Positions 24,816-26,122 of a stretch of DNA of 49,595 nt are shown piece after piece. The stretch lies in contig CAMDXE010000004.1 in assembly GCA_945878925.1 (NCBI GenBank), positions 1 to 49,595 on the forward strand. The letters are read 5' to 3'. Numbering within the stretch: the first letter of the stretch is position 1; each line of letters opens with the position of its first letter. Under the pieces are notes generated by a model. That model was not told the DNA's origin. It did not search any database and was given only the letters and a program-made list of their open reading frames with translations. Both the position numbers and the translations under genes were made by a program. This DNA comes from Chitinophaga pinensis. GTDB taxonomy: Bacteria; Bacteroidota; Bacteroidia; NS11-12g; UBA9320.

Positions 24816-24953
24816 ATGAACCGAAAGTATATTTATAAAATTGCCGTTTTGCTAATTTTTGTGATTGGGTTTGCTGCAACGGGCTTATTTTTTTATTCAA
24901 CAATCGTAAAACAAAATAGCTTCAAATCCCATCAGTTTAAAAATGCAAGATAA
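24816..24953 (+). CDS. 45-residue single-pass membrane peptide
   Basis: ATG at 24816, TAA at 24951-24953. The sequence is MNRKYIYKIAVLLIFVIGFA then ATGLFFYSTIVKQNSFKSHQ and a short polar end: positively charged start, one transmembrane helix (about 8-29), then a polar tail. It begins 3 nt after the dehydrogenase stop and overlaps the ung start by 11 nt, the tight packing of an operon member. No family is recognised. Short length means a chance frame is possible, but position, charge pattern and hydrophobicity favour a real gene. Confidence 0.6.
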   Translation: MNRKYIYKIAVLLIFVIGFAATGLFFYSTIVKQNSFKSHQFKNAR

Positions 24954-25626
24954 GTTATCGGTTGGTCCTTCGTGGAACGAAATTATTAATACCGAGCAAA
25001 ACAAACCTTATTTTAAGAACTTATGTAATTTTTTGGATGAGGAAGAAAAATCGGGCTATGCCATATTTCCTTCAAAATTTTGCCAAATGGCAGCCTTCAA
25101 CCTAACGCCTTTTGATAAAGTAAAGGTGGTTTTAATAGGCCAAGATCCTTACCATAATTCGGGACAAGCCAATGGGCTTTGTTTTTCGGTAAATAATGGA
25201 ATACCAATACCCCCATCCTTAAAAAATATTTTTAAAGAATTAGAAAATGATTTACAGATAGCCTCGGGCTTGAATGGAGATTTATCAAAGTGGGCGGCCC
25301 AAGGTGTATTATTATTAAACACCGTATTGACAGTAAGGGCCAATATACCCGCATCGCATCAAAATAAAGGATGGGAAAGGTTTACCGATACCATTATTCA
25401 AACCTTAAATGAGCAAAAATCCGGCTTAGTATTTTTACTTTGGGGCAATAATGCCAAACGTAAAAAACGATTAATTAGCGCTCAAAATCATTTAATTATT
25501 GAAGCACCACATCCCTCTCCATTATCGGCATATAAAGGATTTTTTGGAAGCCAGCCCTTTTCAAAATCCAATGCCTATTTGAAACATAAAGGACTTGGGA
25601 TAATTGATTGGGCCCTCAAGGGCTAA
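24943..25626 (+). CDS. ung: uracil-DNA glycosylase, family 1
   Basis: 227 residues. It removes uracil from DNA as the first step of base-excision repair. Family-1 signatures are complete: GQDPYH with catalytic Asp68, NGLCFSV, PPSLKNIFKEL (the Pro-rich backbone-pinching loop), LLLNTVLTV, and HPSPLSAYKGF with His190 in the minor-groove Leu loop. The ATG lies inside the end of the 45-residue gene. A DUF3127 gene with an SSB-like C-terminal tip lies 115 nt downstream under its own promoter. Confidence 0.97.
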   Translation: MQDKLSVGPSWNEIINTEQNKPYFKNLCNFLDEEEKSGYAIFPSKFCQMAAFNLTPFDKVKVVLIGQDPYHNSGQANGLCFSVNNGIPIPPSLKNIFKELENDLQIASGLNGDLSKWAAQGVLLLNTVLTVRANIPASHQNKGWERFTDTIIQTLNEQKSGLVFLLWGNNAKRKKRLISAQNHLIIEAPHPSPLSAYKGFFGSQPFSKSNAYLKHKGLGIIDWALKG

Positions 25627-25704
25627 GGTTATACATCTTGATATTCTTAAATTTTTTGATAAAATGTGCCAACTCAAGGAGTTTTAGCCAATTTATGCAC
25701 ATTG

Positions 25705-25735
25705 TTTGAAATGCCATGATGGCCTATTAATTTTG
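25705..25735 (+). promoter_or_regulatory. promoter of the DUF3127 gene
   Basis: TTTG (25705-25708), a 19-nt spacer, then TAATTTTG (25728-25735): exact TTTG-N19-TAnnTTTG. The -7 box ends 7 nt before ATG 25742, so the transcript is predicted leaderless or nearly so. This also shows that an in-frame codon at 25706, within the -33 box, is not the true start. Confidence 0.75.
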
Positions 25736-25741
25736 CCCATC

Positions 25742-26122
25742 ATGGATATTCAAGGAAAACTAGTTATGCTACTGCCACTACAAAGTGGAACGAGTGCCAA
25801 AGGCGAATGGAAAAAGCAAGATGCTATATTAGAAACGGCTGAACAATACCCAAAAAAGGTTTGTATTTCTTTTTGGGGCGATAAAGCCGATGAGTTAAAA
25901 ATTGTAAAAGAAGGGTCTTTAATTAAGGTGCATATTAATATTGAATCGAGAGAATTCAATGGCAAATGGTATACCGATGTAAGGGCTTGGAAAATTGAAG
26001 CTGGCGACAGCTCTGGTAATGCCAACTCATCCACAGGCAACACAACCATTGATAAACCATTTTCGGACCAACCAGCCGATTTAAGTCCTTCGAACGACGC
26101 GGTGGATGATTTGCCTTTTTAA
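25742..26122 (+). CDS. DUF3127 protein, OB-fold-like with SSB-type C-terminal tail
   Basis: 126 residues from ATG 25742. Residues 1-82 match the Bacteroidota DUF3127 family (ILPLQSGTS-type LLPLQSGTSAKGEWKKQD, YPKKVCISFWGDK, IESREFNGKWYTDVRAWKIE). The alternation of strands resembles an OB fold like that of single-stranded DNA-binding protein; this is inference. Residues 83-116 are a Ser/Asn/Thr/Pro-rich disordered linker, and the protein ends DAVDDLPF, very close to the DDDIPF tip by which SSB recruits repair enzymes. The gene follows ung. It may be an auxiliary ssDNA-binding or repair-recruiting protein. The start is set by the promoter ending 7 nt upstream. Confidence 0.88.
   Translation: MDIQGKLVMLLPLQSGTSAKGEWKKQDAILETAEQYPKKVCISFWGDKADELKIVKEGSLIKVHINIESREFNGKWYTDVRAWKIEAGDSSGNANSSTGNTTIDKPFSDQPADLSPSNDAVDDLPF

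Follow-up and report, generated by a model that had tools for sequence, protein, structure and literature searches.

The gene at 25742-26122 (+ strand) of the window, by which we mean the whole stretch of 49,595 nucleotides of Chitinophaga pinensis DNA analysed here, encodes a DUF3127 protein that is probably a divergent OB-fold protein of the SSB type, which coats ssDNA and docks client proteins by its C-terminal tip, side by side with canonical SSB. Its OB domain (residues 1-86) would bind single-stranded nucleic acid, most likely ssDNA, the disordered linker would present a DDLPF tip, and this tip would dock in the pockets that read the tip of canonical SSB in PriA, RecO, RecQ, Ung and other clients. 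Such a protein would give replication, repair or recombination a second SSB-type hub, which phages may have taken as their own SSB. From the features presented below we infer ssDNA binding and client docking, together with oligomeric state and a division of labour with SSB. The gene is near-universal and usually single-copy in a dominant gut and environmental class, and its domain is named in one paper of the open-access collection searched. If it does specify a second SSB-type hub, which is what looks new here for the cellular, tip-bearing protein, models of Bacteroidota replication and repair with a single SSB are incomplete.

A predicted OB fold related to SSB

The gene runs from an ATG at 25742 to a stop codon at 26120-26122, and its 126-residue product is the DUF3127 protein named in the preliminary description. 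The interval given there, 25705-26122, ends where the gene ends, but its start is the TTTG of the promoter. Residues 2-86 match PF11325 (DUF3127) with an E-value of 9e-33 and a score of 112.7 bits (cut-off 27), over positions 1-85 of the 85 in the profile. The window protein also has a full-length match (E 1e-25) to PHROG_4932, 'single strand DNA binding protein', a family that matches 60/60 DUF3127 members. Three parts can be distinguished: (i) an OB-fold domain (residues 1-86, 25742-25999), delimited by pLDDT and conserved residues, (ii) a linker (residues 87-120, 26000-26101) rich in P, A, S, D and G, predicted to be disordered by its pLDDT of 40-60 and by its composition in 108 homologues, and (iii) an SSB-type C-terminal tip, VDDLPF (residues 121-126, 26102-26119), defined by alignment and consensus.

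The comparison of residues 1-85 with OB folds that had been suggested beforehand favours the OB reading. AlphaFold, run on a 60-row alignment, models residues 1-80 with a pLDDT of about 88-94 (about 92 is typical) and predicts a strand-strand-strand-helix-strand-strand topology, which is that of an OB fold with its helix between strands 3 and 4. The predicted elements are strands at residues 2-10, 14-18, 21-32 and 39-45, a helix at 46-54 and strands at 60-72 and 75-87. Conserved residues in the domain are G16, G21, W23, E31, S69, R70, E71, N73, G74, K75, W76, Y77 and T78. Foldseek finds 11 PDB chains at E <= 1e-3, every one of them SSB, SsbA, SsbB or PriB. These E-values are modest (best 1e-4), and the query TM of about 0.5 is that low because the 40-residue tail is counted. 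In a viral structure library, the best named matches are DUF3127 and SSB proteins.

Kinship is much harder to see by sequence. The window protein has no match to PF00436 (canonical SSB) at its cut-off, which 1/60 members approaches with an E-value of 0.05, and neither single-sequence nor profile searches of PDB chains detected a solved structure. Profile-profile alignment with hhalign of 20 DUF3127 OB domains, divergent and phage members included, with 12 canonical SSBs, all with tails cut off to rule out a tail-driven match, nevertheless yields a probability of 92.1% (E 6e-7), whereas the controls, one reversed and five column-shuffled, reach 0.07-0.6%. The match is remote and covers mainly strands 3-5, in 51 columns where the aligned region reads '..G..V.V...L..R.W....G...Y.T...AW'. 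Given the distance between this probability and the controls, the simplest reading of the domain is as a very divergent SSB relative, and the SSB-like OB protein of the preliminary description has gained a detectable homology. OB folds also serve in RNA or protein binding, which is a point against the ssDNA reading, and some DUF3127 members have weak Pfam matches to PC4 and replication-factor OB domains.

DUF3127 shares with canonical SSB (PF00436) the OB fold, OB homology, a disordered linker of Pro, Ser and acidic residues and an acidic-hydrophobic-Pro-Phe tip. It differs in being shorter (an OB domain of 86 residues in proteins of 111-152), in lacking the N-terminal NKVILIGNLG and TEWH motifs, and in scoring below the PF00436 cut-off in cells where the two co-exist. 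PriB, matched through 1woc and 4apv in Foldseek, is likewise a small OB-fold protein, but PriB is not known to have an SSB-type tip, whereas DUF3127 has both a disordered tail and the tip. The SsbB proteins of Bacillus, mycobacteria and Staphylococcus (matches 7dep, 5yyu and 5gqo) are also extra SSBs beside a main one. Second SSBs such as SsbB are PF00436 paralogues, whereas DUF3127 is a separate and far more divergent family.

A conserved C-terminal tip

The protein ends in NDAVDDLPF, with DDLPF encoded at 26105-26119, just as described beforehand, and the proposed check of whether the acidic-Pro-Phe ending is conserved has a positive outcome. Among homologues found by a search made without selection for the tip (109, in two collections), Pro-Phe are the last two residues in 108. 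The consensus of the 109 is D-D-L-P-F: D occupies position -5 in 91 of them and position -4 in 99, position -3 is L, C, V, M or A, and P125 and F126 are invariant in the 60-row alignment. By comparison, a PF ending occurs in 4/740 unrelated neighbouring ORFs of the same loci, which places the DUF3127 tip far above chance. The tip is also present in 24/24 other loci of the window's family (a few of which overlap with the 109), in 26/28 full-length divergent proteins from a sample chosen for low domain scores, and in 9/10 phage proteins, the tenth of which ends in PLF. In one other family of the phylum (L182 and L187) the PF is lost and the acidic end is kept. Of the computational outcomes named beforehand as counting against the reading, a non-OB fold and a tip that is not conserved, this one subfamily is the sole instance.

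The tip counts are without L196, whose frame is broken, and L197, which lies at a contig edge. L054 (3-770), where the gene begins at base 3 of a contig end, was excluded as probably chimeric, its frame continuing at the C-terminus into a sequence that we take to be pirin-like; a genuine fusion is the alternative to a chimeric contig.

The stretch between OB domain and tip varies among homologues, and a variable linker followed by a constant tip is what a docking peptide carried on a linker would look like. The motif -LPF is also the ending of canonical SSBs from this phylum, and it is established that the Pro and Phe of the SSB tip enter a pocket of clients such as RecO and ExoI (PMC7145534). 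Genome-wide, the pattern [DN]-hydrophobic-P-F-stop has 22 matches, compared to 27 in a reversed control, and the pattern alone therefore cannot list tip-bearing proteins.

Co-existence with SSB in cells, probable replacement in phages

DUF3127 is found in 96/98 genomes of the class (95/97 besides the window's own), usually as one copy, and also in other classes of the phylum; among 14 control genomes it is found in Bacteroides only. One genome of the class (G394, L013) has four copies and a few others have two. PF00436 SSB is encoded in 60/60 genomes tested, 58 of which also have DUF3127. With canonical SSB in every one of these genomes, cellular DUF3127 is an addition to it and not a replacement. 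No conserved DNA-repair neighbours of the cellular gene were found in 80 loci beyond same-clade synteny.

This co-existence in nearly all genomes would also suit a modulator of SSB, whose OB domain would have RNA, a protein or SSB itself as its ligand and whose tip would compete with SSB for clients, either to free them from ssDNA or to regulate them. The presence among the best fold matches of PriB, an SSB-derived OB protein that works in a protein complex, points the same way, although PriB is not known to bear an SSB-type tip, which counts against the parallel. We consider such a role unlikely, if not negligibly so, and an argument against it comes from phages that have DUF3127 and no other SSB. 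The PHROG_4932 phage proteins belong to the same family as the window protein, and in ten records they are the sole SSB-like gene (a PF00436 gene is present in 0/10), whereas the cellular copy is chromosomal and extra to SSB. Several of these phage genes lie within replication or recombination modules, with RecT, RusA, NinG, ERF/YqaJ, primase, helicase or DnaA-like genes nearby. Phage DUF3127 does look like a replacement for SSB, which suggests that DUF3127 coats ssDNA itself. Other Flavobacterium phages carry canonical SSB, and 62 of those records are from F. columnare hosts; the listed hosts of the DUF3127 phages differ from F. columnare, in records that were partly cross-checked.

Both PHROGs and RefSeq name the phage proteins single strand DNA binding protein, a label that was itself inferred. 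The link between DUF3127 and the SSB family is therefore partly known already, and the central SSB-like proposal, well supported by the computation reported here, was largely anticipated by phage annotation.

Canonical SSB is encoded twice in the window's genome. The housekeeping SSB (L031, G000:C38, 1495-1935), in an HU-mutY-ssb-gldE locus whose neighbours were named from sequence, ends in NEGELA, and 6/6 genomes examined within the genus have no terminal PF on this protein (L031; compared with L201-L203 and L260-L264). The endings within the genus are DDDLP, FNEDIS, HEGELS, GDLS and NEGELA, with a graded series from DDDLP to HEGELS. At the same mutY-ssb-gldE locus, the protein ends in DLPF in eight genomes that belong to other genera of the family. 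The loss of the PF terminus in the genus, set against the DLPF kept by sister genomes, is new here. A short SSB paralogue (L032, G000:C1, 1486-1869; compared with L198-L200, L244 and L247) ends in -LPF in this genus and in -LPF or -VPF in some related genera of the family, and is tipless in most other Bacteroidia groups. Within the genus, the tip was identified on two SSB-like proteins, DUF3127 and the short SSB.

This pattern agrees with a move of the docking role away from the housekeeping SSB. More broadly, and as a possibility that we hold tentatively, Bacteroidota may have two SSB-type hubs, highly diverged and sharing one docking tip, client recruitment having moved in this genus to DUF3127 and the short SSB. 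It is also possible that the modified tip of the housekeeping SSB still binds clients. The docking tip is essential in E. coli SSB, and a genus whose housekeeping SSB has lost it would show, as a natural experiment, whether the main SSB has to carry the tip.

The ung neighbour and the promoter

The preceding gene (24943-25626, + strand) is ung, encoding uracil-DNA glycosylase (PF03167, E 4e-19), which the preliminary description named as the upstream neighbour. Throughout the window's genus (7/7 genomes) ung does lie immediately upstream of the DUF3127 gene, although about 700 bases separate the two in L034 and L220, and an interaction between SSB C-termini and UDGs is known (Handa et al., 2001, cited in PMC7145534). 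A role devoted to recruiting uracil-DNA glycosylase, as gene order suggests, is nevertheless very improbable. The adjacency is seen in 0/18 loci of other genera of the family (flanks of about 1.5 kb) and in 0/76 wider, more distant loci (flanks up to 6 kb), the tip is no less conserved in loci that have ung elsewhere, and the DUF3127 gene has its own promoter. Being confined to the genus, the adjacency is an inherited local gene order, and a special Ung link is unsupported; for a divergent SSB-type DUF3127, Ung may be one client among many of its tip. Of the earlier reading, the OB fold, the kinship with SSB, the tip and the promoter are supported, and its emphasis on Ung is not. Hardly credible at all is an RNA-binding OB protein with a cold-shock or mRNA role and a fortuitous acidic tip, since, however often OB folds bind RNA and whatever the weak PC4 and replication-factor OB matches of some members may hint at, neither an SSB-identical tip in nearly all members of the phylum nor the replication-module context in phages is likely by chance.

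That the gene has a consensus promoter of its own was right in kind, the promoter being of the Bacteroidota TTTG/TAnnTTTG type. On the + strand, an upstream block (CAATTTATGCACATTGTTTG, 25689-25708), conserved in L033-L036 and with one exact copy in the genome, ends in the -33 TTTG box (25705-25708), which matches the Bacteroidota promoter, and the -7 box (TAATTTTG, 25728-25735) completes a TTTG-N19-TAnnTTTG match. The four nearest relatives also have the TTTG/TAnnTTTG block immediately ahead of their ATG, and all congeners have the -7 box 5-8 nucleotides ahead of it. The corresponding box lies at -12 to -5 in Flavobacterium (PMC9723704), a spacing that would place the transcription start at about position 25740, two bases ahead of the ATG. 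The recurrence of the block, and of its -7 box at this short distance from the ATG, makes a leaderless DUF3127 mRNA likely; leaderless mRNAs account for just 5.5% in Flavobacterium psychrophilum (PMC9723704).

A sigma-70-like match at 25638 was rejected as chance, with 7 such matches found and 7.2 expected. The upstream block CAATTTATGCACATYGTTTG was likewise rejected as a site shared by a regulon, the genome having one exact and one weak copy. At 25689-25735, the arrangement CAATTTATGCACATYGTTTG-N19-TAnnTTTG recurs in the nearest relatives and is a possible site for a gene-specific regulator.
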